From contig CANRPC010000001.1 of the NCBI GenBank assembly GCA_947632435.1, forward strand, positions 139,986 through 185,102: a stretch of DNA of 45,117 nt, in the 5' to 3' direction. Below, one piece after another: positions 2,400 to 18,652 of this stretch. The notes beneath the pieces are model-generated. The model was not told where the DNA came from. It worked only from the letters and a program-made list of their open reading frames with translations, and did not search any database. Position 1 is the stretch's first letter. Each line of letters opens with the position of its first letter. The stretch comes from an uncultured Bacilli bacterium. Lineage in GTDB: Bacteria; Bacillota_I; Bacilli_A; RFN20; CAG-449. A program made the translations under genes and the position numbers.

Positions 2400-2434
2400 T
2401 AAAAGTGGTGGATTTGTTCTGCCACTTTTATTTT
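2400..2434 (+). terminator. Rho-independent terminator after the Hint gene
   Basis: The arms AAAAGTGG (2401-2408) and CCACTTTT (2422-2429) form a stem, with a further T-G pair, followed by a T-rich tail. It directly follows the stop codon. Confidence 0.75.
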
Positions 2435-2495: not shown

Positions 2496-2525
2496 TTTAC
2501 ATATTTAAGATAAATTGTTTATAAT
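2496..2525 (+). promoter_or_regulatory. Sigma-A-type promoter of the island operon
   Basis: TTTACA at 2496-2501 and TATAAT at 2520-2525 are separated by 18 bases. It lies between the upstream terminator and the first gene of the 16-kb same-strand run, and is the only strong promoter match I see for that run. Confidence 0.65.
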
Positions 2526-2614: not shown

Positions 2615-3169
2615 ATGTTTAAAAAGAAAATAAGTAATGAAGAATTAACAGAAATTAGAGAAAAAAAATATCGTGAAACTTCTTATAAATTAAAAAATAT
2701 TATTGCTCATATGGATGATAAAAAAGATGATCTTCTATCAAAAGTTATTGAGGCACGAAGAAAAGGACTTGCTAAACAAGAAAAAGATGCTAGATCACTT
2801 TTAAAAAAATGTTTAGCAACAAAAAAACAAGTAGAGGGAATGTTGATGACTCTTGAACTTGCTGTTGAATCAAGAGATTTAGCTTCTACAAGTCAAAGTT
2901 TTATGGAAAGCATTGGTGATCTATCAAAAGAAATTCAAGTTTCGAATAAAAAAACAAATGTTAAAAAAACAAGAAAGCAATATCTCAAGGCTTTATATGC
3001 ATCTAAATTACAAACTAATAAAATTGATGAATTTTTATCTTTAGGTGATTATGATTCAGTTTTATCATTTGATGATAATAAAGGTATGGAATTTGATGAT
3101 GAAATAAATTCTATGATAGAAGATGCAGAGGCAAACGTTAATTTTCAAGGTATAAAAAATAAATTTTAA
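2615..3169 (+). CDS. ESCRT-III/Snf7-like helical coiled-coil protein
   Basis: A 184-residue, all-helical, highly charged protein with no signal peptide or membrane segment. Residues about 30-110 form a long basic amphipathic helical hairpin (ARRKGLAKQEKDARSLLKK, then KKQVEGMLMTLELAVESRD). This resembles the alpha1-alpha2 core of Snf7/CHMP proteins, where a basic ARxLLKxK-like stretch is followed by a QLxxLE-type helix. A short acidic C-terminal helix (DDEINSMIEDAEAN) lies where ESCRT-III proteins carry their regulatory or MIM-bearing helix. Residues about 30-150 are clearly paralogous to the N-terminus of the next gene, sharing the motif NVKK(T/S)xK and its spacing. It is the first gene of the island, 15 bases before the FtsK-like gene. 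PspA/Vipp1 belong to the same superfamily and are the main alternative. The fold assignment is by eye. Confidence 0.55.
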   Translation: MFKKKISNEELTEIREKKYRETSYKLKNIIAHMDDKKDDLLSKVIEARRKGLAKQEKDARSLLKKCLATKKQVEGMLMTLELAVESRDLASTSQSFMESIGDLSKEIQVSNKKTNVKKTRKQYLKALYASKLQTNKIDEFLSLGDYDSVLSFDDNKGMEFDDEINSMIEDAEANVNFQGIKNKF

Positions 3170-3184
3170 TCAGGGAGTTATAAA

Positions 3185-5056
3185 ATGTCATTTAAGAGTT
3201 TTCAAAAAGATTTAGAACGAAAAAAAGAAGAACAATCAATGATTGATTCATTAAATTCAATGATTCAAATACTATCTCAAAAGCGCGATGAATATGCTAA
3301 AAAAGCTAAAGAAGAATTAAAAAAAGATAATAAAAGTCAATATTTAGCTTATGTTTCATTATTAAAAAATTCAATGTTTAATTTAGCCCAAACTCAAGAT
3401 ATGCTTGCAAATTATACAATTGCTAAAGATTTAAGAGAAATGCAATCATTGAATAAAAATTTTGTCAAATCAATCGACAAAATTATGAAAAATGTTTATA
3501 AAACAAGTAAATCTGTAAATGTTAAAAAATCTCAAAAAACATTTAACAAAGCAATTTTTGCTCAAATGCAAACATCATCAAAATTAAAGACATTGTTAAA
3601 AGATAATAATTTCTCTTTTTCCAATAGTGTTAATACATTATCTGATATTAGCGATTTAGAAGTTCGTAAAATTCTTGAAGATGAAATTAAAAAAGATGAT
3701 TATGATTTTGAAAATACTCTTAAAAAACTTGAAGATTCACTTTCTATTGAAGATGAAAAAGAATTAGTAACTCCTCAGGCAATAACTATTTCGGGTAAAA
3801 ATGAAGATAATTTATTAAATTCAAATATTAATAATGAAAAGAATAAAAGTGCCGAAGATGAAAATAATAAAGATGATATAGTTAGTATAAATAAAAATAA
3901 TGAAATAAAATCTTTTACTAAAGAATATGTTTATCCTCCTCTATCATTATTAAATGATTATGAAGAAAATACGAAAATTCATGAAGAAAATGAAAAAGAA
4001 ATAAAAGAACTTAAAGAAATATTAGAAAATAAATTGAAAGAATTTCATATTTCAGCAAGTGTTGAACATTATGATGTTGGATCCACATTTTCAAGATTTG
4101 AATTACGCTTAGATAAAGAAACACGTGTTTCTCAAATTGCTGATGTAATTAATGATTTAGCAATTGCCCTAAAGAGAAAAGTTCGTTTGCAAACTTTAAT
4201 AGAGGGTAAAGATTTAATTGGAATTGAGGTTGGTAATTCTATGCGTGAAGTATTAACCTTAAAATCTATATTGGAAAATAATGATATCGCTAAAAACAAA
4301 GAGGATATTAATATATGTTTAGGAGTGGATGTTGATTATAAGACAATAATTAAATCTTTTGATGATTTTCCACATCTTTTAGTTGGTGGAAGTACAGGAA
4401 GTGGAAAAAGTATATTCTTACATTCACTTATAAGTAGTTTATTATTTAATTACAATCCTCAAGAAGTACAAATGGTTTTATTTGATTTTAAACGAGTAGA
4501 ATTTGGCATGTATAATGGTATACCACATTTATTAAATGGTAAAGTAATTGATGAAGTAGAAGATGCATCAAATATTTTAGAATTTTTAAATAATGAGATG
4601 GATAACCGTTATAATAAATTGCTAGATGCAGGAGTAAGAAATATAAAAGAATACAATCAAGAAAATAGCAATAACAAGCTATCAAGAATTATTGTTTTTG
4701 TTGATGAATATGCTGAATTATTGAATTCAAATAGACCTAAAGAAGATGCTGCTTTGTTATTAAGACTTGCTCAAAAAGCCCGCGCATGCGGTATCCATTT
4801 AGTTATATCAACACAGCGACCAGATGTAAAAATAATAAGTGGAAATATAAAAGTTAATTTCCCTACACGTGTTGCTTTTTCTGTTGCATCGCACATTGAT
4901 AGTATGAATATTTTAAATGCTTCTGGTGCAAATGATTTACTCGGTAAGGGTGATATGTTAACAAATGTAGATGGTAAAATAACTAGACTTCAAGCACCAT
5001 TTATTAGTATTAAAGAAATTAAATCAGTGGTTGATTTTATTAAACTTAATAAATAA
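3185..5056 (+). CDS. FtsK/SpoIIIE-type ATPase with an ESCRT-III-like N-terminal domain
   Basis: 623 residues. Residues about 1-170 are a charged helical region paralogous to the preceding 184-residue protein (SVNVKKSQKTFNKAIFAQMQ against TNVKKTRKQYLKALYASKLQ). An acidic, Asn/Lys-rich linker follows (about 180-240), then the FtsK alpha-like segment (YPPLSLLND) and the motor domain. Walker A is GGSTGSGKS (401-409) and Walker B is IIVFVDEYAEL with D507-E508; ISTQRPD and a conserved C-terminal motor region follow. The usual N-terminal membrane segments and the DNA-reading gamma winged helix are both absent, so this is not the chromosomal FtsK/SpoIIIE. It could be a soluble DNA or protein translocase tethered to an ESCRT-III-like polymer. 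The ribosome binding site GGGAG lies just before ATG. Confidence 0.8.
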   Translation: MSFKSFQKDLERKKEEQSMIDSLNSMIQILSQKRDEYAKKAKEELKKDNKSQYLAYVSLLKNSMFNLAQTQDMLANYTIAKDLREMQSLNKNFVKSIDKIMKNVYKTSKSVNVKKSQKTFNKAIFAQMQTSSKLKTLLKDNNFSFSNSVNTLSDISDLEVRKILEDEIKKDDYDFENTLKKLEDSLSIEDEKELVTPQAITISGKNEDNLLNSNINNEKNKSAEDENNKDDIVSINKNNEIKSFTKEYVYPPLSLLNDYEENTKIHEENEKEIKELKEILENKLKEFHISASVEHYDVGSTFSRFELRLDKETRVSQIADVINDLAIALKRKVRLQTLIEGKDLIGIEVGNSMREVLTLKSILENNDIAKNKEDINICLGVDVDYKTIIKSFDDFPHLLVGGSTGSGKSIFLHSLISSLLFNYNPQEVQMVLFDFKRVEFGMYNGIPHLLNGKVIDEVEDASNILEFLNNEMDNRYNKLLDAGVRNIKEYNQENSNNKLSRIIVFVDEYAELLNSNRPKEDAALLLRLAQKARACGIHLVISTQRPDVKIISGNIKVNFPTRVAFSVASHIDSMNILNASGANDLLGKGDMLTNVDGKITRLQAPFISIKEIKSVVDFIKLNK

Positions 5057-5071
5057 AGGAAAATTAAATCT

Positions 5072-5283
5072 ATGGAATTAAAAGAAATGATGAAATGTCC
5101 AAATTGTGGGCAAACATTAGAAATAAAAGACAAAGAATATCAATGTAATTATTGTAAATCAATATTTTATAATGAAGAAATAAATCAATATAATAAAACC
5201 CTAGAAGAAGTATTAGGGGAAACTTTTAATATCCAAAAAAATGAACAAATAGCAAATGCAAGATTTAATTTATATAATGAATT
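5072..5283 (+). repeat. Near-identical gene 5' end, copy 1 (with 9881-10092)
   Basis: About 212 bases starting exactly at the ATG match 9881-10092 with roughly five differences by eye. Similarity then falls abruptly. The ribosome binding regions upstream do not match. Confidence 0.9.
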
Positions 5284-8200
5284 ACATAAAAGATTTTTAA
5301 GCAGTGAAAAAATAATTTATTGGTGTAAAGAGATAAAGAAAAATATACCAAATGATTTCCAAGCAAATTTTTATGAAACAGTAAATGGTAATGATATAAA
5401 TGAAATTAATAATGCAATATTAAGTATAGATGTAAAAAAACATAAAGTATATATAGATGACATAATTGAATTTATGCTTGCATCATTAAATGAACAAAAT
5501 CATATATTAATAGAAGACTTAATTGAAAAATCCTATACAAAAAAAGAAGAAATAGAAAAAAAGGTAAGATATTTAGAAATATTACAAAATGAGATAGAAA
5601 AAATAAATAAAGATACATATGTAATAGATATACCAAGAGATGTATTTATAGCATATTCAAGCAAAGATATAAAAGAAGTAAATGAATTAGTAAATTATAT
5701 AGAAAAAGAAGGACTAACATGTTTTATAGCTCAAAGAAACTTAAGACATGGAAAAAAAGCAATAGAAAATTATGAAGAATATATCCATAAAGCCCTTAAA
5801 TTAGCAAAAAGTTTAGTATTTGTATCAACAGAAAACTCAAGAAGTTTTGAATGTGGAGCAATAGAAGAATTAACATATGTAAGAGATAATTTAAAAGAAA
5901 AAAAATGTTATGAATATAGATTAGATACAATAGAAACAAAATCTGGAATGAAAAAATTTTTATATGATAATGAAGGAATATTTAAGGGAAAAGAATGGAT
6001 ATGTGATAAAGAAGATTTATTAAACGAAATAATAAAAGGGATATATAATAAAAAAAATGATTATCAAATATGCAAAAAATGTGGTGCGGAAATTCCATTA
6101 AATGCAAATTTCTGTTTAAAATGTGGAGTAAATCTAAAACAAGAAATAAATGATATACAAGAAAAAAAGCCAAATGAAGAAAAACAAATAACACTAATAA
6201 ATTCAAATGAAAAAGCAGGAAATATATTAGGAAATGGAACATATAAAAATAAAGAAAATGTTACTATAAAAGCAACATCAAATAAACATTACAAATTTTT
6301 AGGATGGTATAATGAACAAGATTTATGTGTTTCAAATCAAGTTACATATACATTTATAATAGAAGAAAGTCAAACATTAATTGCAAAATGGGATTATGTA
6401 GGTCCATATATATATTATGTTGTTGATGGAGAAATCGTATATAAAGGAAATTATATAGAAAAAGATTTTTACCAACATAAAACAGATAAAAACTTTTATG
6501 GATGGTATGAAACTAAAACATTTAATTCATCTAATAAAAAAATTGATCCCTCAAAATTAACAATTACAGGTGATACTTATGTTTATGGTACAACATTAGA
6601 AACAAAATTTGAATTCGAATATAAAAATGATGGGTATGAAATTACAAAATATAATGATACAAAAGAAAATGTAATTATACCTTCAAAAATTAATAAAATT
6701 CCTGTAATTAGTATAGGAAGAATTACTTTTGCTTTTCACAATACTTTACGTAATATAACAATTCCAAATAATATAACAAAAATAGGAACTGATGCTTTTT
6801 CTTATTGTAAGTCCTTAAAATATAACGAATATGGTAATTGTTTATATTTAGGAAATGAAGAAAATCCATATTTAGTATTGGTAAAAGCAAAAGATGAATC
6901 AATAACAGAAGCAACAATATCAAATAATACAAAATTTATTATGAATAATGCATTCCGATATTGTAGATTTTTACAAAATATAGCAATTCCAAATAGTGTT
7001 ATAGCTATGGGTTATTCAGCATTTTATGGTTGTGCTTCATTACAAAGTATTTTTATTCCAAGCAATGTAAAAAACATTGGAGAACGTGTATTTTCTAGTT
7101 GTTATTCGTTGATTTCAATAAAAGTTGACGAAAATAATAGATATTATGATTCAAGAGACAATTGTAACGCAATAATAGAAACATCAACAAATAAACTAAT
7201 AAAAGGTTGTCAAACAACAATAATTCCAAATAGTGTTATAACTATAGATTATTCAGCATTTTATGGTTGTATTTTCTTACAAAGTATAACTATTCCAAGT
7301 AGTGTCTCAAGTATAGGAGAATGTGTATTCTCTAACTGTAGTTCCTTAACCACAATAATAGTAGATAAAAATAATAAATATTATGATTCAAGAGAAAATT
7401 GTAATGCAATAATAGAAACATCAACTAATAAGTTAATAAGTGGTTGTCAAACAACGGTAATTCCAAGTAGTGTCACAAGTATAGGAGATTATGCATTTAG
7501 TAGTTGCACTAATTTACACAGCATAATCATTCCAAATGACGTTACAAGTATAGGAGAAGGAGCATTCTCTAATTGTACTTATTTACAAAGTATAATAATA
7601 CCAAATAGCGTAACAAGTATTGGTGAACGCGCATTCTCTAATTGTACTTATTTGCAAAGTATAACCATTCCAAAAAGTGTCACAAGTATAGGTGAATACG
7701 CATTCTCTGAATGCAGTTCTTTAACAATTTTTTGTGAAACAAGTAATCAACCAAATGGATGGAATCAGTTTTGGAATTATGATAATTATCCAGTACATTG
7801 GAATTATAAAGAAAAATATGATGATGAAAAATTATTTATACAAGAAAAAAAACAGGTAATAAAACAAATAACACTAATAAATTCAAATGAAAAAGCAGGA
7901 AACATATTAGGAAATGGAACATATAAAAATAAAGAAAATGTTACTATAAAAGCAGCATCAAATAAACATTACAAATTTTTAGGATGGTATAATGAACAAG
8001 ATTTATGTGTTTCAAATCAAGCTACATATACATTTATAATAGAAGAAAGTCAAACATTAACCGCGAAATGGGATTATGTAGGTCCATATATATATTATGT
8101 TGTTGATGGAGAAATCGTATATAAAGGAAATTATATAGAAAAAGATTTTTACCAACATAAAACAGATAAAAACTTTTATGGATGGTATGAAACTAAAACA

Positions 8201-9868
8201 TTTAATTCATCTAATAAAAAAATTGATCTCTCAAAATTAACAATTACAGGTGATATTTATGTTTATGGTACAACATTAGAAACAAAATTTGAATTCAAAT
8301 ATAAAAATGGTGGGTATGAAATTACAAAATATAATGATGCAAAAGAAAATGTAATTATACCTTCAATAATTAATAAAATGCCTATCATTAGTATAGGAAG
8401 TTTTGCATTCTATCATTGTAATAAATTAATTTCGGTAGCATTTGAAACAAATAGTAAATTAAAAATTATAGATGGAATTGCTTTCGCTAATTGTAGCTCT
8501 TTGCAAAGTATAACCATTCCAAGTAGTGTAACAAATATAGGAGATAATGCATTCTCTCATTGCAGTTCTTTACAAAGTATTTCAATCCCAAATAGTATAA
8601 TGAGTATAGGAAATGATGCATTTTATGGTTGTAGTTCTTTGAATTATAAAGAAAGTGGTAATTGCTTATATTTAGGAAATGAAGAAAATCCATATTTAGT
8701 ATTAGTAAAAGCAAAAGATAAATCAATAACAGAAGCAACAATATCAAATAATACAAAATTTATTATGAATAATGCATTTCGATATTGTAAATCTTTACAA
8801 AATATAGCAATTCCAAATAGTGTTATAGCTATAGGTTATTCAGCATTTTATGGTTGTATTTTCTTACAAAGTATAACTATTCCAAGTAGTGTCACAAGTA
8901 TAGGAGAATGTGTATTCTCTAACTGTAGTTCCTTAACCACAATAATAGTAGATGAAAATAATAAATATTATGATTCAAGAGACAATTGTAACGCAATAAT
9001 AGAAACATCAACAAATAAATTAATAAGAGGTTGTCAAACAACAATAATCCCAAGTAGCGTTATAATTATTGGAGAAAATGCATTTAGAGATTGCACTTAT
9101 TTACAAAGTATAATAATACCAAATAGCGTAACAAGTATTGAAGAAGGGGCATTCTTTAGTTGTAGTATGTTGACCAAAATAACAGTAGATAAAAATAATA
9201 AATATTATGATTCAAGAGAAAATTGTAATGCAATAATAGAAACATCAACAAATAAGTTAATAAGAGGTTGTCAAACAACTATAATTCCATGTAGTGTCAC
9301 AAGTATTGGAGAAGGAGCATTTTGTGGTTGCAGTTCGTTAAAATGTATCATCATACCAAATAGCGTAACAAGTATTGAAAATAATGCATTCTTTTGTTGT
9401 AATCATTTACAAAGTATAACAATTCCAAATACTGTAACAAATATAGGAAAATTTGCATTCTCTTATTGCTGTTCTCTACAAAGTATTTCAATCCCAAATA
9501 GTATAATGAGTATAGGGAATGAAACATTCATTGGTTGTGATTCTTTGAATTATAACGAATATAGTAATTGCTTATATTTAGGTAATGAAGAAAATCCATA
9601 TTTAGTATTAGTAAATGCAAAAAATGAATTAATAACAGAAGCAACAATATCAAATAACACAAAATTTATTATGGATAATGCATTTTCCAAGTGTAATTCT
9701 TTACAAAGTATAATAATACCAAATAGTGTAACAAGTATTGGTGAATGCGCATTCTTTGAATGTAGTTCTTTAACAATTTTTTGTGAAACAAGTAATCAAC
9801 CAAATGGATGGAATTTGTTATGGAATTATGATAATTATCCAGTACATTGGAATTATAAAAAAAGATAA
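5072..9868 (+). CDS. Zinc ribbon-TIR-zinc ribbon protein with duplicated InlB/LRR_5 arrays
   Basis: 1598 residues, no signal peptide or membrane helix, so probably cytoplasmic. In order: zinc ribbon (C9, C12, C25, C28); helical segment to about 185; TIR domain about 188-330 (RDVFIAYSSKD, then LVFVSTENSRSFECGAIEEL); a second zinc ribbon (C334, C337, C348, C351); an InlB-type beta repeat from K371 (HYKFLGWYNEQ); then BspA-like LRR_5 repeats (SLQSITIPSSVTSIGECVFSNC type). A second InlB repeat starts near K931, with more LRR_5 repeats. Both LRR blocks end in the same cap (NGWN...NYDNYPVHWNYK). E265 or E266 fits the TIR NADase glutamate position. TIR plus LRR resembles plant and animal receptor layouts, with no NB-ARC; an AAA ATPase is encoded nearby instead. 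Sensing by LRRs and NAD cleavage by TIR are inferred from family knowledge. Confidence 0.85.
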   Translation: MELKEMMKCPNCGQTLEIKDKEYQCNYCKSIFYNEEINQYNKTLEEVLGETFNIQKNEQIANARFNLYNELHKRFLSSEKIIYWCKEIKKNIPNDFQANFYETVNGNDINEINNAILSIDVKKHKVYIDDIIEFMLASLNEQNHILIEDLIEKSYTKKEEIEKKVRYLEILQNEIEKINKDTYVIDIPRDVFIAYSSKDIKEVNELVNYIEKEGLTCFIAQRNLRHGKKAIENYEEYIHKALKLAKSLVFVSTENSRSFECGAIEELTYVRDNLKEKKCYEYRLDTIETKSGMKKFLYDNEGIFKGKEWICDKEDLLNEIIKGIYNKKNDYQICKKCGAEIPLNANFCLKCGVNLKQEINDIQEKKPNEEKQITLINSNEKAGNILGNGTYKNKENVTIKATSNKHYKFLGWYNEQDLCVSNQVTYTFIIEESQTLIAKWDYVGPYIYYVVDGEIVYKGNYIEKDFYQHKTDKNFYGWYETKTFNSSNKKIDPSKLTITGDTYVYGTTLETKFEFEYKNDGYEITKYNDTKENVIIPSKINKIPVISIGRITFAFHNTLRNITIPNNITKIGTDAFSYCKSLKYNEYGNCLYLGNEENPYLVLVKAKDESITEATISNNTKFIMNNAFRYCRFLQNIAIPNSVIAMGYSAFYGCASLQSIFIPSNVKNIGERVFSSCYSLISIKVDENNRYYDSRDNCNAIIETSTNKLIKGCQTTIIPNSVITIDYSAFYGCIFLQSITIPSSVSSIGECVFSNCSSLTTIIVDKNNKYYDSRENCNAIIETSTNKLISGCQTTVIPSSVTSIGDYAFSSCTNLHSIIIPNDVTSIGEGAFSNCTYLQSIIIPNSVTSIGERAFSNCTYLQSITIPKSVTSIGEYAFSECSSLTIFCETSNQPNGWNQFWNYDNYPVHWNYKEKYDDEKLFIQEKKQVIKQITLINSNEKAGNILGNGTYKNKENVTIKAASNKHYKFLGWYNEQDLCVSNQATYTFIIEESQTLTAKWDYVGPYIYYVVDGEIVYKGNYIEKDFYQHKTDKNFYGWYETKTFNSSNKKIDLSKLTITGDIYVYGTTLETKFEFKYKNGGYEITKYNDAKENVIIPSIINKMPIISIGSFAFYHCNKLISVAFETNSKLKIIDGIAFANCSSLQSITIPSSVTNIGDNAFSHCSSLQSISIPNSIMSIGNDAFYGCSSLNYKESGNCLYLGNEENPYLVLVKAKDKSITEATISNNTKFIMNNAFRYCKSLQNIAIPNSVIAIGYSAFYGCIFLQSITIPSSVTSIGECVFSNCSSLTTIIVDENNKYYDSRDNCNAIIETSTNKLIRGCQTTIIPSSVIIIGENAFRDCTYLQSIIIPNSVTSIEEGAFFSCSMLTKITVDKNNKYYDSRENCNAIIETSTNKLIRGCQTTIIPCSVTSIGEGAFCGCSSLKCIIIPNSVTSIENNAFFCCNHLQSITIPNTVTNIGKFAFSYCCSLQSISIPNSIMSIGNETFIGCDSLNYNEYSNCLYLGNEENPYLVLVNAKNELITEATISNNTKFIMDNAFSKCNSLQSIIIPNSVTSIGECAFFECSSLTIFCETSNQPNGWNLLWNYDNYPVHWNYKKR
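6182..6720 (+). repeat. Internal duplication, copy 1 (with 7862-8400)
   Basis: About 540 bases encoding the InlB-type repeat and the following linker recur exactly 1680 bases downstream with only around a dozen differences by eye. The offset is a whole number of codons (560). Confidence 0.9.
7862..8400 (+). repeat. Internal duplication, copy 2 (with 6182-6720)
   Basis: Second copy of the InlB-repeat unit. The flanking LRR sequence also contains shorter near-identical blocks (for example 7228-7369 and 8819-8955), so the gene is a mosaic of recombined modules. Confidence 0.9.
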
Positions 9869-9880
9869 GAGGTTTTATTC

Positions 9881-10092
9881 ATGGAATTAAAAGAAATGAT
9901 GAAATGTCCAAATTGTGGACAAACATTAGAAATAAAAGACAAAGAATATCAATGTAATTATTGTAAATCAATATTTTATAATGAAGAAATAAATCAATAT
10001 AATAAAACCCTAGAAGAAGTATTAGGGGAAACTTTTAATGCCCAAAAAAGCGAACAAATAGCAAATGCAAGATTTAATTTATATAATGAATT
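9881..10092 (+). repeat. Near-identical gene 5' end, copy 2 (with 5072-5283)
   Basis: Matches the first 212 bases of the upstream TIR-LRR gene, then diverges sharply in the helical region, as expected from gene conversion or a recent partial duplication. Confidence 0.9.
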
Positions 10093-11710
10093 GCGTGATG
10101 GTGATAATGATAAATGGATTTTTAAACAAAAAATTAATGGGGATAAAATTAAAGAGCATTGTAATGAAATTATAAGATATTTGCCAAATGATTTTCGTGC
10201 AAAATTTTATCCTTGTGTTGTAAATAATAATATAGATGAGATTTATAAATTAATAGATAGTAAAGAAGCAATAGATTATAAAAATGATATTGTATATTTT
10301 ATTCTTCATAATATGAAAAATCTTACTAGAAGTAAAAGCCTTATAATAAAATTAAAAGATTTTGTGAAAGATCAATATGCTTCAAATGATATAAAAAAAT
10401 GTTTATTAGAAAAAATAGAAAAAGAAGACAAGCTTATAGAAAATGGGTATTATGAACCAAAAGAAATTTTTATAATTTATGCTAATGAAGACGAAGATAA
10501 AGTGTCTAATTTAATGACAAAATATTTAGAAAAAAATAATGTTCAGTGTTTTTTTAAAAAAGAACATTTAGGTACTATTATAATTAATAATAATATTAAT
10601 GAAGATGAAATTTTAAAAAATATTTTATTAGAGTGCAAAAAAGTTTTATTTATTGCATCTGAAAATTCTAAATTAAATAATAGTCAATCTATAAAATTAT
10701 TAGAAGAAGCAAATAAGCAGAAAAAAATTGTTTTTGAATATAGAATAGATAAGTCAATATCACAAGAAAAAATACGTAAATTATGTAGTAAAAATATTAT
10801 TTGTAATTCAATAAATGAATTATTATTTAAATTAAATCCAAATTATACCCCTATTGTTAAACAAGAAGATGAAGATAAATACATACCTATTGAGAAGCAG
10901 GATATAATTTTTGATAAGTCTGAATTTGCAATTGAAGAAACAAAATTGGTAAAATATATTGGTAATAAAACTGATGTAATAATTCCTAATGGAATAACAG
11001 AAATATGTCCTGAAGCATTTAAAGGTAAAACAAATCTTTTGACCATTCTTTTTCCTCCAACAGTTTCAATTATAGGTGAAGAAGCTTTTGAAGATTGCAC
11101 ATCGCTAAGTTCAATCAACATACCTAATAAAGTTAAAAAAATTGAAATAGGTACGTTTAATGGTTGTACTTCCTTAAATTCAATTTATATTCACAAAAAT
11201 ATAGAAATTGTAAAACAAAAAGCATTTTACAATTGTTCTTCATTGTCAAATGTTATTATTGAAAATTGTGACACTATTTTAGAATATGAAGCTTTTGAAA
11301 GATGTGGATTAATTAATTATAAAAAATATGAACATTGTTTCTATCTTGGTAATAAATTTAATCCATTTATGATTTTGATAAAAGGTGATGTGTTTATTAA
11401 AAATGTCAATTTATATCCAGATACAAAAGTAATTGCGCCAAGAGCATTTTCAGGATGTGTTGATATTGAATCAGTAAATTTATCATTGAATTTGGAAAAA
11501 ATAAGTCATCATGCTTTTAAAGGATGCAAAAAACTAAAAAGTATTAATTTACCTTCATCAATAAAATCAATTGAAGAAAAAGCATTTGAAGAATGTAAAA
11601 AATTAAAAATTTACACGGAAATAGATAATGATACAATTAAAACATGGCCTACAAATTGGAAACATCGATCTGCAAAAGTTATTTATAATAAAAAAAAGGT
11701 TGCTAATTAA
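9881..11710 (+). CDS. Zinc ribbon-degenerate TIR-LRR_5 protein
   Basis: 609 residues, no export signal. The N-terminal zinc ribbon (C9, C12, C25, C28) and the next 40 residues are almost identical to the previous protein. A helical stretch follows, then a TIR-like domain at about 193-305 (PKEIFIIYANEDED, KKVLFIASENSKLN). Here the segment that should carry the catalytic Glu reads NNSQSIKLLEEANK, without the C-xxx-E arrangement seen in the larger protein, so the NADase site may be lost. Residues about 350-590 are LRR_5 repeats (SIIGEEAFEDCTSLSSINIP type). It has no second zinc ribbon and no InlB repeat. The gene starts 12 bases after its paralogue ends, with AAGAGGT as binding site. It may be an enzymatically inactive partner or regulator of the full TIR-LRR protein; that role is inference. 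Confidence 0.75.
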   Translation: MELKEMMKCPNCGQTLEIKDKEYQCNYCKSIFYNEEINQYNKTLEEVLGETFNAQKSEQIANARFNLYNELRDGDNDKWIFKQKINGDKIKEHCNEIIRYLPNDFRAKFYPCVVNNNIDEIYKLIDSKEAIDYKNDIVYFILHNMKNLTRSKSLIIKLKDFVKDQYASNDIKKCLLEKIEKEDKLIENGYYEPKEIFIIYANEDEDKVSNLMTKYLEKNNVQCFFKKEHLGTIIINNNINEDEILKNILLECKKVLFIASENSKLNNSQSIKLLEEANKQKKIVFEYRIDKSISQEKIRKLCSKNIICNSINELLFKLNPNYTPIVKQEDEDKYIPIEKQDIIFDKSEFAIEETKLVKYIGNKTDVIIPNGITEICPEAFKGKTNLLTILFPPTVSIIGEEAFEDCTSLSSINIPNKVKKIEIGTFNGCTSLNSIYIHKNIEIVKQKAFYNCSSLSNVIIENCDTILEYEAFERCGLINYKKYEHCFYLGNKFNPFMILIKGDVFIKNVNLYPDTKVIAPRAFSGCVDIESVNLSLNLEKISHHAFKGCKKLKSINLPSSIKSIEEKAFEECKKLKIYTEIDNDTIKTWPTNWKHRSAKVIYNKKKVAN

Positions 11711-11730
11711 TTTTAGAAAGTGGTGATTAT

Positions 11731-12834
11731 ATGAATTATTCAGAAGAATATTTAAATGATAAATTTAAAAAAAGTTACGATGATGCATTAAGAGCATATA
11801 AGTATAATAATTTACCTCTTGCTAAGGAAAAATTTATTGATGCTGCTTCGTATTTAGAGCAATTAGCAAATTGTTTTACAGGATCAAAAAAAGATGAATA
11901 TTTACAAAAATCAAAAAGAGTAAAAAAAGTTGCAGATGCAATTATACTTGCCCCAAGAAATGATTTTAACACTGTACAAACTAGCTATAATAATTCGCAA
12001 ATAATAAAAAATGATATTACTAAAAATTCAATGAGTGAATATATAACATTTTATACTGCTGAAGAATTAAACGAAGGTTTTGAAAGCGTTATTGGTTTAG
12101 AAGAAGTTAAAAAAACTATTATAAATTATGTTGTTAATCCAATTAAATTTCCAGAAGCATATAATTATAAATTTTTAAATAATAAAGCTGTTTTGTTAGA
12201 AGGACCACCTGGAACAGGTAAAACGACATTTGCTAAAGCTATCGCTAAAGAAATCAACCAACCATTTGCGTTGATCAATGTCGCATCACTTGTTAATTGC
12301 TATATTGGTGAAACAGGTAAAAATATTGATAAAGTTTTTCAATATTTACGCGACTATGTAGAAAAAAATAAATGTGGAATTACCGTATTCTTTGATGAAT
12401 TAGATGAAATTGCTAAAAAAAGAGGCGGAGATGACAAAACATCAGAATCAGCAGTCCCTGCATTATTAAGAAATTTAGATGGTGTAAGACAAAACAAAAA
12501 CTTCTTAATTATAGCAAATACAAATTTAAAAGATGCTTTAGATGAAGGTATTAAAGAACGATTTAGACAAAAAATACATATTCCTTTACCAAATAAAGAA
12601 GAAAGAAAACAATTATTTAAAATAAAGCTTTCAGATGTTGAAAGTAAATTTCTTAAACAAATTAATTTTGATAAAATTAGTGATTTATCTGATGGCTTAA
12701 GTGGTAGAGATATAACTTACATATGTGATGATTTAAAGTATGAGCTTTCAAGAATTAAAGCTTACAATATTGAAGATGTAAACATTCTAGAAGTATTAAC
12801 TGATATTATCAATAAAAAAATATCACAAAAATGA
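11731..12834 (+). CDS. Vps4-like AAA ATPase with MIT-like N-terminal domain
   Basis: 367 residues. Residues 1-75 form a three-helix bundle pattern (ALRAYKYNNLPLAKEKFIDA, then ASYLEQLANCF and a Lys-rich third helix) like the MIT domain of Vps4. The AAA domain matches the Vps4/katanin/spastin clade: GLEEVKKTIINYVVNPIKFP, Walker A GPPGTGKT (158-165), pore-loop aromatic Y191 (NCYIGETGK), Walker B VFFDELDE (D222, E223), Arg finger R277 in IKERFRQKIHIPLP, and LSGRDITYICDD in the small domain. The IHIPLP and VNPIKFP matches to Vps4 are striking. In known systems such ATPases pull ESCRT-III subunits apart, and an ESCRT-III-like protein is encoded at the head of this operon. Classic Vps4 has a beta domain and C-terminal helix, which I cannot confirm here. 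A generic Cdc48/FtsH-like AAA is less likely. Confidence 0.8.
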   Translation: MNYSEEYLNDKFKKSYDDALRAYKYNNLPLAKEKFIDAASYLEQLANCFTGSKKDEYLQKSKRVKKVADAIILAPRNDFNTVQTSYNNSQIIKNDITKNSMSEYITFYTAEELNEGFESVIGLEEVKKTIINYVVNPIKFPEAYNYKFLNNKAVLLEGPPGTGKTTFAKAIAKEINQPFALINVASLVNCYIGETGKNIDKVFQYLRDYVEKNKCGITVFFDELDEIAKKRGGDDKTSESAVPALLRNLDGVRQNKNFLIIANTNLKDALDEGIKERFRQKIHIPLPNKEERKQLFKIKLSDVESKFLKQINFDKISDLSDGLSGRDITYICDDLKYELSRIKAYNIEDVNILEVLTDIINKKISQK

Positions 12835-12844
12835 AAGGATAAAT

Positions 12845-13147
12845 ATGGAAACTAGTAAAAGTAATAATAATGTCGGTAAAAAATTAAAGATGTTACGTGC
12901 AGAATATGATTTTACACAAGAAGATATTGCAAAAAAATTAGGAATAACTCAACAAACTTATAGCAAATATGAACAAAATGGGAATTTGAGTGCAAAAGAT
13001 ATTAAAAAAATATGTGAAATATATGGAATTTCTTCTGATTATCTTTTAGGAATTGAACCTAAAAAGAGTTCAAAAAAAATCACTAAAACCAGTTATGATA
13101 TAGATTATATTGTTAATGAAGTAATTTCAAAACTAAATAAAGAATGA
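12845..13147 (+). CDS. XRE-family HTH regulator
   Basis: 100 residues. Residues about 13-68 form a Cro/C1-type helix-turn-helix (FTQEDIAKKLGITQQTYSKY, then ISSDYLLGI). A short Lys-rich tail follows. It starts 10 bases after the Vps4-like gene with AAAGGA as binding site, so it is made from the same message. It is a candidate autoregulator of the island; I do not see a clear operator. Ends in TGA, which supports the standard bacterial code. Confidence 0.85.
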   Translation: METSKSNNNVGKKLKMLRAEYDFTQEDIAKKLGITQQTYSKYEQNGNLSAKDIKKICEIYGISSDYLLGIEPKKSSKKITKTSYDIDYIVNEVISKLNKE

Positions 13148-13167
13148 TTACAATATAGGAGTTTAAT

Positions 13168-14241
13168 ATGATTGTATGTAAAAATTGTGGAGCAATATTT
13201 GATGATTTTCTTGGTAAATGTCCATATTGTAAATCGCCAAATAATAACAATGATGATAAAGATAAAAAAATAAATAAAAATTTTTCTAATTCGCAAAAAA
13301 ATGAATCTTTTATATATAAGTATAAAGATTTTATAAGTGATGAAAAATTATATCAAACTGCATTACTTGAATTAAATGTTAATAATCATTATGAAAATGC
13401 ATTAGAAATGTTTCGTGAATTAGCATATCGAGGACATCTTGATGGAATGTATATTTTTGCAGATTTACTTCTTAAACAAATGAATCCCGATAAGAATTCC
13501 GCTTTAAAATGGTTAAGATATGCGGCTAGCAATGGTCATCAAAAAAGCAAAATTAAACTTGAGATGTTAGATGATAATAACAATTTTATAAGCAATAATA
13601 TTGACGTTTCTAATTCTAATTTATCTACTTTAATCTATAAAGCTTTACCATTTGTTGTAAGTATACAAGTGGTTAAAAATAAATTAAATGGAGTAGAAAT
13701 AAGTCAAGGATCAGGTTTTGTGATAAAAGGTGGTTTTGTAGTAACTAATGCTCATGTTATTATAGGTAATATAAATGATTATGAAAATGGGATAAATCAA
13801 ATAAATAGTATTCAAGCATGCTATGAAACCAATATTTCTTCAATTCCTTACTTGCTTACACCTATTAAAATAATTCCTGAATTAGATATTGCTGTATTAA
13901 TTTTTACAGGAGAAAAAGCTAAAAAAGTAAAATATCAAGATTGTCTTTCATTTAGAATTGATAATCTCAAATATGGAGAGCAAGTTTACACAATAGGGAA
14001 TCCACTTGGTGTAGGTTTAAGTGTTTCTCAAGGAGTTATATCATCTCCTAATCGTGATTATGGTAATAAAGAATTTATTCAAGTAGATATGGCTATAAAT
14101 CATGGAAATTCAGGAGGAGCACTTCTTGACATGAATAATAATGTCATCGGTATGGTTTCAGCTACACCATCAAATCGGGAAGATGGTATGGCATTATGTG
14201 TTCCAGCAAAATATATTGTTCAAGTTTTAAATAAATTATAA
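13168..14241 (+). CDS. Zinc ribbon-Sel1-trypsin-like serine protease
   Basis: 357 residues with no signal peptide or membrane helix. An N-terminal zinc ribbon (C4, C7, C18, C21) is followed by a charged linker, a Sel1/TPR-like helical repeat region at about 55-125 (GHLDGMYIFADLLLK, ALKWLRYAASNGHQKSK), then an HtrA/DegP-like trypsin fold. The triad is complete: H196 (VVTNAHVI), D240 (ELDIAVLIF) and S315 (HGNSGGALLD). There is no PDZ domain, unlike normal HtrA. A cytoplasmic protease with a Zn ribbon and Sel1 repeats suggests processing of a partner in the island rather than envelope quality control. The ribosome binding site is TAGGAG. Trypsin-like peptidases occur as effectors or processors in bacterial conflict systems; the substrate here is unknown. 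Confidence 0.85.
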   Translation: MIVCKNCGAIFDDFLGKCPYCKSPNNNNDDKDKKINKNFSNSQKNESFIYKYKDFISDEKLYQTALLELNVNNHYENALEMFRELAYRGHLDGMYIFADLLLKQMNPDKNSALKWLRYAASNGHQKSKIKLEMLDDNNNFISNNIDVSNSNLSTLIYKALPFVVSIQVVKNKLNGVEISQGSGFVIKGGFVVTNAHVIIGNINDYENGINQINSIQACYETNISSIPYLLTPIKIIPELDIAVLIFTGEKAKKVKYQDCLSFRIDNLKYGEQVYTIGNPLGVGLSVSQGVISSPNRDYGNKEFIQVDMAINHGNSGGALLDMNNNVIGMVSATPSNREDGMALCVPAKYIVQVLNKL

Positions 14242-14255
14242 AGGAGATATTAAAG

Positions 14256-15068
14256 ATGTTATTTAAAAAAGAAAAACCTGTTATTGAAATTAACAATAAT
14301 AATGAATATTTACTATGGAAATTAAATATCAATGATATTCCATATGATACCAAACTTTGTGTTGGTGATGGATGTGAAGCAATATATATTGAAAATGGAG
14401 ATATTAAAAGGTTTAAAAGTGGCCAAGAGTATGTTATAAATCAAAAAAAGATTGGCAAGAACAAAAAGATGATACTTGTTGGATCAAAAGTAAATTATAG
14501 ATTTGTGCTAAGATGTGGTACAAAAGAAAAATTTTTATTAAAAGACCCAACAGATAGATCAAAAGCAGGAACTTATGTTGGTTCTTCCGCGGATATTAAT
14601 GTAAAATTAATAAATGCTAGACAACTTTATGACAATTTTAAAGATTTAGAACATCTAACTAATAATTTCTTTGATGATTATGTAAACGATACTTTAAACC
14701 ATTTATTAAGTTTAGAATGCGATTATTTAAAAAATAAACCAGTAATAGATACTGCAAAAAATATTAAAGAAGTAGAAAAAAAATTAAAACAAAGCGTTCA
14801 AGATTATCTTGAAAAATATGGCATAGAAGTAGAAAATTGTTTAATTCATATTGCCTATGATGAAGAATATCAAAAACATATTCGTGATGTCGATGCAAAT
14901 TATCAAAAAGAAAATGATCAATTTAGAAAAACGAGAAAAGAAATTGATTTAATGCAAAAAATTCAAGATGGAACAAACGAATCTAAAAAAAATACTAAAT
15001 GTTCATTTTGCGGAAATGAAATTGATTCAAATAATATGTTCTGTCCAGTTTGTGGAAGAAAAATTTAA
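14256..15068 (+). CDS. SPFH-like protein with C-terminal zinc ribbon
   Basis: 270 residues. The N-terminal half is a beta-rich region (LLWKLNINDIPYDTKLCVGD, EAIYIENGDIKRFKSGQEY) resembling the SPFH/virion-core-like family of YdjI type. Alpha-beta and helical segments follow (ARQLYDNFKDLEHLTNNFF; VQDYLEKYGIEVENCLIHIA), as in band-7 proteins where a C-terminal helix drives oligomerisation. The C-terminal zinc ribbon is CSFCGNEIDSNNMFCPVCG. There is no obvious membrane helix. SPFH proteins typically form membrane-associated rings or scaffolds, so it could be the platform for the island's other products. A strong AAGGAGA site precedes ATG, 14 bases after the protease gene. Confidence 0.6.
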   Translation: MLFKKEKPVIEINNNNEYLLWKLNINDIPYDTKLCVGDGCEAIYIENGDIKRFKSGQEYVINQKKIGKNKKMILVGSKVNYRFVLRCGTKEKFLLKDPTDRSKAGTYVGSSADINVKLINARQLYDNFKDLEHLTNNFFDDYVNDTLNHLLSLECDYLKNKPVIDTAKNIKEVEKKLKQSVQDYLEKYGIEVENCLIHIAYDEEYQKHIRDVDANYQKENDQFRKTRKEIDLMQKIQDGTNESKKNTKCSFCGNEIDSNNMFCPVCGRKI

Positions 15069-15085
15069 ATTGTTGGAGGTAAAAA

Positions 15086-16513
15086 ATGTTTTTTAAAAAA
15101 TATTTAAATGTTAAAGTGTTAAATCTTAATAATACTAATAAAAGGATTATAAAAGAAAAATTAGATGAACTTCTAAATGGAAATTATTCTAAAGAATTAA
15201 GATCCAAAATAAGAAATCTTTTTAATCGTGTTGATGAAACTGCATCAGATAACAAAAAATGTATTGAATTTGATTCTAAAATTATAAGTTTATTAAATGC
15301 TGCACTTGATAATAAAACATCTGAATCAAGTGTTGCATTATATGTAAACAAAGCAAGTGAATTGTTATTAAAAAGAAATAGCAGTGGAATTATGGAAAAT
15401 AGTGATTTTTTCAATAAACCAAAAAAAGTCATTAAACAAGAAAGAAAATTAAAATTAAAACAAACAAAAAATAATCTAAATGATTTATTAACTCCTGAAG
15501 ATTTGATTACAATTACACTTGATCAATTAAATGATAAAAAAGAAAAACTACTCACTGAATTGGATAATGCTAATAGTTCAGTAATGTATAATGCTATTAA
15601 AACAAAAATTACCACGATTGATAATCAATTAAAAATGTATGGTAACGAATTACTAAAAAATGTCTTGTATGAAAATTATAAATCTTTATCTGAAGAAGAA
15701 AAGAAAGCTAGAAATATTAATGGTTTTTCTGATGCTGACTTTGAAGATGCAGCAGATAAAATTAAAAATTTTGGTATTGAGATAACTGAGCAGACAGAAA
15801 AACTTGAAAATATTATTGATGAATATACTAATAATTCTTCTAATGGTAAAACAAATTCCGCATCTAAAAGTAAATATGAATCAACATCTAGTTTAAATGC
15901 AACAAAATCCTCTAATAATGGCGATATTGATGAATTTGAAATGCGTCAAATCTTTAAAAATTTAGATGAAAATATCGAAAAATTAGAACAAAGATTAGGT
16001 GAATTAAATAATGAACTCGATATTTTAAATAATGAAAGAGGTAATTTAGCAGAAGATTTGAAAGAATTATTATTAGAAAGAAAAGATGCTACTGCATCTG
16101 AATGCAAAATTTTAGATAGTAAAATAAATCAATTACAAAAGAAATATCAAATTAATGGCAGAAACATCGATGAGAAAATTAATGCAATCAGTACTTTGAA
16201 CGAATATCTAGATCATTCAAATATGCTTAAAAATGTACGTGATCGAAAAGAAAATGATGAAAAAATTATTTTTGGAAAATTTGGGATGTTTGATGACATG
16301 GAACGTACAGCACTTTATATCAAGAATTACATTGAAAAATGTAATGAAAAATTGGATAGTTCTTCTATGGCTAATAGTGTTGCATCCTCTTCATCGTGGA
16401 ATACTTCTTCAATTGCAAGTACAGATTTAAATAATACATATACTGGTGAAGTAAAAGATGATGATAAATTTAAAGATCTTGAAATTGAATTAGGAATTAG
16501 GCAAAAGAATTAA
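15086..16513 (+). CDS. Long coiled-coil protein of unknown function
   Basis: 475 residues, hydrophilic, largely helical, with no membrane segment. Heptad-rich stretches lie at about 130-190 (LTPEDLITITLDQLNDKKEK), 205-250 and 280-365 (LDENIEKLEQRLGELNNELD). A Ser/Asn-rich linker at about 250-280 and a Ser/Thr-rich C-terminus suggest flexible hinges. I do not recognise a family. In the island it lies between the SPFH-like protein and the CbxX-type ATPase, so a structural or polymer-forming role beside the ESCRT-III-like subunit is plausible. The binding site is TTGGAGG. Confidence 0.6.
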   Translation: MFFKKYLNVKVLNLNNTNKRIIKEKLDELLNGNYSKELRSKIRNLFNRVDETASDNKKCIEFDSKIISLLNAALDNKTSESSVALYVNKASELLLKRNSSGIMENSDFFNKPKKVIKQERKLKLKQTKNNLNDLLTPEDLITITLDQLNDKKEKLLTELDNANSSVMYNAIKTKITTIDNQLKMYGNELLKNVLYENYKSLSEEEKKARNINGFSDADFEDAADKIKNFGIEITEQTEKLENIIDEYTNNSSNGKTNSASKSKYESTSSLNATKSSNNGDIDEFEMRQIFKNLDENIEKLEQRLGELNNELDILNNERGNLAEDLKELLLERKDATASECKILDSKINQLQKKYQINGRNIDEKINAISTLNEYLDHSNMLKNVRDRKENDEKIIFGKFGMFDDMERTALYIKNYIEKCNEKLDSSSMANSVASSSSWNTSSIASTDLNNTYTGEVKDDDKFKDLEIELGIRQKN

Positions 16514-16600
16514 ATTTATTAGCGATAAAGTATTTTTAATTGCTCAAAAGATAATTAAGAATAGCTATTTATTACTTAATTAACTTAATAGGGAGGAAAA

Positions 16601-17725
16601 ATGGAAAGTTTTGAATATTTAGAAATTTCAATAGAAAATATGTTAACTAAATCGGAAAATGCTTTGCAAAAAGGAAATGTTTCACTTGCAAAGCAATTTA
16701 ATGATTTAGCAATAAAGCAAATCAAAAAAATAATTGAAATTTATCCTAATAATAGCAGTGAATATAAGAACAAATTAAATGAAATTCAAAATAAAGAATT
16801 TAAAAATGTTCCTCAGTTAAAAAATGAAACAATTAATAATATTGATAATAGAGAGCAATCTCCAAATAAAACTTATAATAATGATGATAAAAATAATCAA
16901 GAAATTAATATTTCAAGTTTACAAGAATCACTTAATAAATTAGATAGTTTGATTGGTTTAAATGCTGTAAAAAAGCAAGTTAAAAGTTGGATTAATACAG
17001 TTAATTTTTCACGTAGAAGGGAAGATATAAATTTAAAAAAAATTTCAAAATCATATCATTTAGTATTTTCAGGTAATCCTGGAACTGGAAAAACAACTGT
17101 AGCTAGAATTATTGCTGATATATGCAAATCCTTAGGAATTGTTTCAAAAGGCCATTTAATAGAAGTTTCTGCAGAAGATTTAGTTGCAGAATATGTTGGG
17201 CAAACCGCGATAAAAACAAAAAAAGTTATTGATAGTGCTTTAGGTGGAGTTTTATTTATTGATGAAGCATATTCATTAAATTCAAAGGGGAATACATTTG
17301 GTGAAGATGCTATTAATACATTACTTAGAGCAATGGAAAATAATCGTGAAGATTTTATCGTTATTGTTGCAGGATATAAAGATGAAATGAAAAACTTTAT
17401 TTCATCTAATCCTGGATTAAATTCTAGATTTCAGTATTTTATTGAATTTGAAGATTATAATGCTGAGGAATTATATAAAATTTTTGAAAAAATGTGTTCA
17501 GATGCTGATATGAAAATAGAATTAAAAGCTCAAGAAAAATTGAAAAACTATTTTATAAATTTATTTGCTAATCGTTCTGAAACGTTTGGTAATGGTAGAG
17601 ATGTGAGAAAGTTTTTTGAAAAGACTTTAGAAAATATGGCAAATCGCTTAGGTGAAAAACTCTACTCTAATGTTAATAAAGATGAATTATCAATTATTAC
17701 ATGTGATGATATTATAACAAGTTAA
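16601..17725 (+). CDS. CbxX/EccA/SpoVK-type AAA ATPase with MIT-like N-terminus
   Basis: 374 residues. Residues about 1-70 are a helical bundle (KSENALQKGNVSLAKQFNDL, then IKQIKKIIEIYP) with the same ALxxGNxxLAKxxF pattern as the Vps4-like protein at 11731. A linker follows, then a CbbX/CfqX-family AAA domain: LIGLNAVKKQVKSWI, Walker A GNPGTGKTT from G158, pore segment VAEYVGQTAIKT, Walker B GGVLFIDEAYSL (D221, E222) and sensor/Arg finger region NPGLNSRFQYFIEF. Relatives include Rubisco activase CbbX, SpoVK and EccA of type VII secretion. It starts 87 bases after the coiled-coil gene with a strong AGGGAGG site. Two different AAA motors with the same kind of N-terminal adaptor in one operon suggests both act on one helical polymer; this is inference. 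Confidence 0.8.
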   Translation: MESFEYLEISIENMLTKSENALQKGNVSLAKQFNDLAIKQIKKIIEIYPNNSSEYKNKLNEIQNKEFKNVPQLKNETINNIDNREQSPNKTYNNDDKNNQEINISSLQESLNKLDSLIGLNAVKKQVKSWINTVNFSRRREDINLKKISKSYHLVFSGNPGTGKTTVARIIADICKSLGIVSKGHLIEVSAEDLVAEYVGQTAIKTKKVIDSALGGVLFIDEAYSLNSKGNTFGEDAINTLLRAMENNREDFIVIVAGYKDEMKNFISSNPGLNSRFQYFIEFEDYNAEELYKIFEKMCSDADMKIELKAQEKLKNYFINLFANRSETFGNGRDVRKFFEKTLENMANRLGEKLYSNVNKDELSIITCDDIITS

Positions 17726-17761
17726 TTAGATTAAATTTTAAGCTTTAGGAGTATTTTAATA

Positions 17762-18652
17762 ATGGAAATAAAAGAAAATAAATGTCCAAGTTGTGGACAT
17801 ACAATTAAAATAAGAGGAAATAAATATGTTTGCAAATATTGTAAAACAATATTTTATGATGAAGAAATAAAAGATGAAAATAATGGACTATATGATGAAG
17901 AATTTTATAAAAATATAACAGTTCATAACTATGATACTGATGAGTTTGAAATTGAATATAATCAGCATTTAAAAAAATATAAAGGAAATAATGAGGTTGT
18001 ACTTATTCCTAATGGAATTACAGTTATAAGAGATAATGCCTTTGATGGATGTAGTTTTATAAAAGCAGTTATTTTTCCTAATGATTTTGTTGGTATATGC
18101 GATTATGCATTTAGAAATTGTAGTTCTTTACAGCAAGTTAATATTCCAAATGGCACTCTATATATACGTAATAATGCCTTTGAAGGGTGTAGTTCATTAA
18201 AAAGTATTAATATTCCAAAAAGTATCTATGAAATTGGTCGACATGCTTTCACTAATTGTTCATCTTTAACATCCATTAAAATTCTAGGTAATGTCAGTAA
18301 AATAAAGGATGGGACATTTGCACAATGTACTTCTTTAAAAAGCATTTATATTCCAAATTCAATTAGAAGTATAGAATGGAGTGCTTTTGAAGGATGTAGT
18401 TCATTAAAAAATATCAATATTCCATATGGAGTAATAAGTATAGATAGTTTGGCTTTTAAAGGTTGTACATCTTTACAAAATATCGTTATCCCTTATAGTG
18501 TAAAAACGCTTGGGAAAAATGTATTTGAAGGTTGCACTTCATTAAAAATTTATTGTGAAGCAATTTTACCACAAAATGATTGGGATAAAGATTGGAATAA
18601 AGGCTGGAAAACTATTTTAAAAAAAGTGCATTGGGATTATGGAAAAAAATAA
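17762..18652 (+). CDS. Zinc ribbon-LRR_5 protein without TIR
   Basis: 296 residues, no signal peptide. The N-terminal zinc ribbon (C8, C11, C24, C27; then KTIFYDEEIKD) is homologous to those of the two TIR proteins upstream. After a short linker there are about eight BspA-type LRR_5 repeats at about 75-265 (EGCSSLKSINIPKSIYEIGR type). The cap (DWDKDWNKGW...VHWDYG) resembles that of the large TIR-LRR protein. It carries the same head and sensor-like array but no TIR, so it may be a decoy, regulator or recognition subunit. It is the last gene of the island. I see no convincing terminator after it. Confidence 0.8.
   Translation: MEIKENKCPSCGHTIKIRGNKYVCKYCKTIFYDEEIKDENNGLYDEEFYKNITVHNYDTDEFEIEYNQHLKKYKGNNEVVLIPNGITVIRDNAFDGCSFIKAVIFPNDFVGICDYAFRNCSSLQQVNIPNGTLYIRNNAFEGCSSLKSINIPKSIYEIGRHAFTNCSSLTSIKILGNVSKIKDGTFAQCTSLKSIYIPNSIRSIEWSAFEGCSSLKNINIPYGVISIDSLAFKGCTSLQNIVIPYSVKTLGKNVFEGCTSLKIYCEAILPQNDWDKDWNKGWKTILKKVHWDYGKK

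Follow-up and report, generated by a model that had tools for sequence, protein, structure and literature searches.

The window, i.e. the whole 45,117-nucleotide stretch of DNA from an uncultured, gut-type Bacilli bacterium that was analysed, holds a co-directional run of eleven genes (2615-18652) whose intergenic gaps are mostly shorter than 40 bases. Within this run, an intact open reading frame lies exactly at 11731-12834 on the forward strand and encodes a protein of 367 residues (P0001) with a predicted MIT-like domain and a Vps4-like AAA ATPase. The positions of the genes and sites are collected in Table 1, in which the letters A and B stand for two families of helical proteins that recur beside such ATPases in other Bacilli. 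Upstream of the run, at 2-2398, lies the gene for a large protein with Listeria-Bacteroides repeats and, near its C-terminus, a match to a Hint module (Pfam, 1.4e-4).

Table 1. Genes, domains and candidate signals of the cluster, in window coordinates
Feature	Position	Strand	Evidence
Terminator-like hairpin, ends the upstream gene	2400..2430	+	13-pair stem and T tract; consensus match only
Promoter-like site TTTACA-18-TATAAT, before the cluster's first gene	2496..2525	+	11/12 matches; consensus only, such sites being equally common in shuffled sequence
184-aa ESCRT-III-like protein, family B	2615..3169	+	Leave-one-out profile E 1.6e-23
Acidic C-terminal tail of the 184-aa protein, candidate MIT ligand	approx. 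3092-3166	+	
B domain (approx. residues 1-189) fused to FtsK/SpoIIIE-like motor	3185..5056	+	B profile 1e-63 on residues 1-189 (leave-one-out 1.5e-19); Pfam FtsK_SpoIIIE 1.2e-43
Zinc ribbon-TIR-zinc ribbon-LRR protein, 1598 aa	5072..9868	+	Pfam TIR_2 1.9e-7 within first 443 aa; NCBIfam LRR adhesin and repeat matches
Second TIR-like/LRR protein, 609 aa	9881..11710	+	LRR_5 1.4e-40; TIR_2 weak, 0.008
MIT-like domain (residues 5-70, nt 11743-11940) and Vps4-like AAA ATPase	11731..12834	+	
Pfam AAA domain of P0001, residues 154-286	12190-12588		
HTH_3 regulator, 100 aa	12845..13147	+	Pfam 1.7e-15
Zinc-ribbon trypsin-like protease, 357 aa	13168..14241	+	Trypsin_2 4.1e-21
SPFH/Band 7 protein with C-terminal zinc ribbon	14256..15068	+	Band_7 6.9e-9; Zn_Ribbon_1 2.2e-6
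Helical protein, 475 aa	15086..16513	+	In the place of the small protein and A elsewhere; next to SPFH
CbbX/SpoVK-type AAA protein, helical N-terminus	16601..17725	+	SpoVK 2e-81
Zinc ribbon-LRR protein, last of the co-directional run	17762..18652	+	LRR_5 1.8e-52

The two TIR-LRR genes have near-identical N-termini, and the first carries internally duplicated blocks; this resemblance suggests a recent duplication or recombination. Homologues of the protease are present in two of the related clusters described below (L020 and L039), and at other loci homologues of the SPFH protein sit upstream of A and B. The 475-residue helical protein gave no match in a profile search for A or B, so it is assigned by synteny only. 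Likewise, the N-terminus of the CbbX-type protein was not recognised as MIT when it was left out of the profile (E 3.1), and its assignment follows from position only.

What kind of AAA ATPase is P0001? The first-pass annotation had quoted a set of motifs as matching the Vps4/katanin/spastin clade, and every one of them can be located in the 367-residue product: GLEEVKK at residue 122, VNPIKFP at 135, IHIPLP at 282 and LSGRDI at 323. The product also has the Walker A motif GPPGTGKT at 158, the Walker B motif FFDELDE at 220 and an aromatic pore loop, Tyr-Ile-Gly (YIG), at residues 191-193. The domain is a classical AAA domain (Pfam AAA, 3.5e-30), and its first single-AAA-domain match in the PDB is yeast Vps4 at 117 bits, with one p97 domain at 109. 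In a tree whose yeast Vps4, spastin and katanin references were sequences identical to PDB chains, the Bacilli proteins, P0001 included, form one clade (96/94), which groups with Vps4, katanin and spastin as opposed to Cdc48 and FtsH (98/96). When two archaeal Vps4 sequences and a Chloroflexota protein were added, both additions fell in the meiotic group (99/97), and the Bacilli proteins stayed outside this archaeal/meiotic group with weaker support (85/84), their monophyly not being firm. P0001 sits on a long branch in every tree, and no other member of its group has a longer one (2.5 changes per site). The annotated affinity is supported: P0001 does fall on the Vps4/katanin/spastin side of the split from Cdc48 and FtsH, but the Bacilli group appears in these trees as a sister clade to that radiation and not as a branch nested within it.

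The Vps4_C helix was not matched by Pfam in P0001, and weak matches under the Pfam cut-off occur in the related proteins of L040 (9e-4), L036 (0.0023) and L011. The MIT-AAA protein of L009 (7793-9262) carries an extra C-terminal domain at residues 418-477 (Pfam DUF7862, 3.4e-5), and a similar extension is found on the MIT-AAA proteins of L010 and L043. Elsewhere, the genome of the window encodes another AAA ATPase (L003 1252-2391, G000 contig C17), which is similar in size but very divergent; it was excluded from the main AAA trees as a long branch.

The N-terminal region of P0001 had been proposed to follow the three-helix pattern of MIT domains, and structure prediction agrees: an AlphaFold model of the window's own 82 residues has helices at 5-24, 28-48 and 52-70 with a mean pLDDT of 84. 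In a Foldseek search of the PDB with this domain, the first three ranks are MIT domains of archaeal Vps4/CdvC, and seven of the eight top matches are MIT; the E-values are weak (0.03 and up), so it is the ranking that serves as evidence, here as for family B. A direct Pfam scan of P0001 alone did not match MIT. Scored against a profile of its relatives alone, the domain is detected at E = 1.6e-4 (Z = 100,000); this value and the 1.6e-23 of the 184-residue protein rule out chance resemblance. Pfam MIT matches 6 of the 14 family members, the best at 3.8e-5. The family profile, built from 14 N-terminal domains of relatives, finds as its top natural PDB sequences the Vps4-like MIT domains of Sulfolobus (2v6y, 1.6e-5; 2w2u, 4e-5), next to which come the MIT domain of Calpain-7 (6e-5) and CdvC. 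TPR repeats also match the profile, and consensus TPR proteins outrank the natural MIT hits, but they do so only because many individually insignificant repeats add up. In P0001, then, the putative MIT domain is recognised only via its relatives and a structure model. Of the two results that the first-pass annotation had named as refuting it, a place outside the Vps4/meiotic clade and the lack of a predicted MIT-like fold, neither was obtained, the place in the tree being that of a sister clade.

The first gene of the run offers the ATPase a possible substrate. Its 184-residue product shares homology with residues 1-189 of the adjacent FtsK-like protein and with the B proteins of other Bacilli. 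A direct Pfam scan of the product did not match Snf7; in a relative, L038:2856-3461, Snf7 matches residues 11-155, nearly the whole model, at 6.1e-6 (26.4 bits, with the curated cut-off at 27.3), and another B member matches at 0.0085. The 184-residue protein is linked to Snf7 only through its family. That best-matching relative is one of two B paralogues (L038 2853-3461 and 4723-5277) that lie around a single MIT-AAA gene. An AlphaFold model of the B protein of L041 (pLDDT 81; helices 7-48, 52-109, 113-148 and 158-194) follows the ESCRT-III helix plan, with an alpha1-alpha2 hairpin, a core and C-terminal helices. Compared with 350,542 PDB chains, this model retrieves ESCRT-III at all of ranks 1-4 (filaments of Asgard archaea and of human CHMP2A-CHMP3), with a weak E-value of 0.15, and Vipp1 first at rank 31. 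The B profile did not match ESCRT-III among PDB sequences, Pfam PspA_IM30 is not among the matches of B, and an hhalign comparison of the B and A profiles gave no significant alignment.

Could the tail of B be the ligand of the MIT-like domain? The acidic C-terminal end that the first-pass annotation had pointed to is indeed present in the 184-residue product. When K is accepted in place of R, 4 of 15 B tails contain the MIM1 motif as published, where 0.07 would be expected; the window's own tail has a degenerate, loose MIM1-like core only, and the loose pattern was defined after the tails had been viewed. The 184-residue protein is a candidate MIT ligand, a guess strengthened by the Pfam Snf7 matches and fold ranking of its family and by gene adjacency.

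Similar, strongly diverged clusters are found at 14 other loci of uncultured Bacilli (13 genomes and one contig), and in 14 of 14 B adjoins the MIT-AAA gene. At most of these loci, genes for an SPFH/zinc-ribbon protein, a small helical protein and helical protein A precede B and the MIT-AAA. Strong matches to the MIT domain within the class fall in genomes that also carry B. The distribution is patchy, at 10 of 395 genomes of the class, and most relatives in the window's own family are without the cluster. Gene fusions join the same parts in other ways: B is fused to FtsK in the window, MIT-AAA is fused to FtsK in L011, and a single protein of L020 combines MIT, CbbX-AAA and Vps4-AAA, thereby joining the window's two AAA types. 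The companions differ among loci; for example, L036 and L037 have PP2C, kinases and vWA proteins, and TIR proteins are found near the window's gene order. A BrxL-like gene stands directly downstream of the MIT-AAA gene in L009 (6352-7791; PADLOC BrxL, 2.7e-174), as does a homologue in L010 (7028-8452), and no other BREX genes were recognised in the stretches of these two loci that were read. Searches for B on plasmids or phages and for MIT-AAA in viral contigs found none.

Counterparts exist outside Bacilli. On Thermococcus and Halarchaeum plasmids, a Vps4-like gene lies near genes for two helical proteins of ~200 residues, a kinase and PP2C, and the Candidatus Chlorohelix plasmid NZ_CP128401.1 (L057 1-2455) encodes two helical ~200-residue proteins followed by a MIT-AAA protein and a kinase. 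This Chloroflexota MIT-AAA groups with archaeal Vps4, and the plasmid set represents a second bacterial lineage, perhaps derived by transfer from archaea. Profile comparison pairs the Bacilli A family with the two helical proteins encoded next to Vps4 in archaea and Chloroflexota at 88% (p 2.9e-6), and B aligns with them less strongly, at 47% (p 1.9e-4). Against the PDB, the A profile gave only a weak CdvB match (E 1.5-2).

Taking these lines together, we consider it likely that the cluster at 2615-18652 is a bacterial membrane-remodelling system of the ESCRT-III/Vps4 type. The case is made because individually weak but independent lines, among them the Foldseek rankings and the evidence on A and B, agree with one another. 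Other readings of the same genes must be weighed against it. The cluster might be a defence or signalling complex that has borrowed ESCRT-like parts, with P0001 as an IetA-like remodeller of a TIR anti-phage assembly and the helical proteins as soluble coiled-coil scaffolds. PADLOC IetA does match P0001 at 6e-44, TIR-LRR, protease and BrxL-like genes occur within the clusters, and the distribution is patchy; however, the IetA match is generic for AAA proteins and no subtilisin partner was recognised. Furthermore, no TIR genes were seen in L036-L040, whose clusters have kinases or other genes in that place, and what stays constant is a core of A, B, the MIT-AAA and SPFH, the last being a family of membrane scaffolds. 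We regard this alternative as unlikely, although it is the strongest of those considered.

The cluster could also be read as a divergent PspA/Vipp1 system whose AAA ATPase is an ordinary, recruited one bearing a TPR-like domain, for PspA is the known relative of ESCRT-III in bacteria, the one they normally have, and can neighbour AAA and SPFH genes (PMC11237479, PMC10936438). TPR repeats do match the N-terminal profile, but the single TPR matches are insignificant and the natural top matches are MIT structures. Pfam PspA_IM30 has no match in any of the 14 genomes that carry the system, nor in B, the family in which Snf7 does find matches, and in the fold search Vipp1 stands far below ESCRT-III. 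PspA is not known to carry a MIM-type helix motif. Because PspA is uncommon throughout the class (8/247), its absence alone is weak evidence, and for the same reason we rejected this absence as a hallmark of the system. On balance, this reading seems to us quite improbable. Finally, could archaeal DNA have been misbinned into a bacterial genome? ESCRT has been described as archaeal and eukaryotic, and several of the genomes with the system are uncultured assemblies; nevertheless, the cluster is embedded in a contig of 185 kb and shares the window with a bacterial-type tRNA synthetase gene, a gyrase-like gene and other housekeeping genes, the contamination of the genome is 0.22%, and diverged counterparts are present at the 14 other Bacilli loci. 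Misbinning was already disfavoured on these grounds, and we give it next to no credence.

How might a membrane-remodelling system of the ESCRT-III/Vps4 type work with these parts? Computation has provided the homology of the parts, their predicted folds, their conserved adjacency and the gene fusions, and from these we infer the following sequence of events. B proteins, i.e. the 184-residue protein and the N-terminal part of the FtsK-fused protein, would form polymers at the cytoplasmic membrane, probably together with an SPFH scaffold and the A-type helical protein. The acidic, amphipathic C-terminal helices of B would dock on the MIT-like domain of P0001, and the AAA hexamer, driven by ATP, would draw B subunits through its pore by means of the Tyr-Ile-Gly loop. 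Such extraction would turn over the filament, by which the membrane may be constricted, cut or resealed. The TIR-LRR proteins, the protease and the second AAA protein could form a sensing or response arm, which kinases, PP2C phosphatase and vWA proteins would replace in other lineages. The FtsK fusion suggests that the work site may be one where DNA or protein moves across or away from the membrane, and the neighbouring TIR, kinase, protease and BrxL genes hint at a machine that would respond to envelope damage or phage attack. Within the family, the window's copy is the most derived member: it has no Vps4_C match, a putative MIT domain outside the reach of Pfam and a degenerate tail.

A bacterial version, if true, would alter our view of when the MIT-ESCRT-III partnership originated. 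Filament remodelling could then be studied in a small model that is separable genetically, and a single cluster would connect ESCRT-type membrane work with a DNA-translocase-like motor and with stress or immune genes of the TIR type. A more far-reaching form of the proposal, to which we give even chances, is that a complete ESCRT-III and MIT-Vps4 system exists in at least two bacterial phyla (that of the Bacilli and, on one plasmid, Chloroflexota), with the Bacilli forming a deep sister lineage to the entire Vps4/katanin/spastin group, as opposed to a recent transfer, that is wired to TIR or kinase signalling and directly to an FtsK motor.

Recent surveys state that the membrane-cutting ESCRT machinery known from archaea and eukaryotes is missing from bacteria, and our search of open-access journal papers found no description of the Bacilli system. 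Among its closest parallels are the Main and Meth_adaptin clades of archaeal ESCRT (Makarova et al. 2024, PMC10936438), which share with it MIT-Vps4 and the placement of ESCRT-III-type helical proteins, usually upstream of Vps4. The Meth_adaptin clade also has the SPFH protein with a zinc ribbon, and the Main clade has a Ser/Thr kinase and phosphatase, the form seen at the Thermococcus and Halarchaeum plasmid loci. In contrast to these archaeal clades, the host of the present clusters is bacterial, their AAA proteins fall outside the archaeal/meiotic group, and their FtsK fusions, TIR-LRR proteins, CbbX-type AAA and BrxL-like companions are not described for either clade. The crenarchaeal Cdv system supplies the best natural match of the Bacilli N-terminal domain in both sequence and fold (the CdvC-type MIT), and CdvB shows up weakly in the A and B searches; however, no CdvA gene was recognised in the Bacilli cluster, and there is no sign of a division role, most relatives in the family living without the cluster. 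PspA/Vipp1 systems belong to the same superfamily of helical membrane-remodelling proteins as ESCRT-III and have known SPFH partners, but no MIT-Vps4 partner is described for them, and B differs from them in its Pfam matches and in its fold ranking. IetAS has in common with P0001 the match to a classical AAA ATPase; the two differ in that the P0001 locus has no recognised subtilisin-like IetS, its neighbours are different and its ATPase carries a MIT-like N-terminus. For the transferred VPS4-like ATPases that Ravi et al. 2024 (PMC11237479) describe in bacteria, an unrelated gene is reported to have taken the place of Snf7, whereas the Bacilli clusters have ESCRT-III-like genes beside the ATPase.
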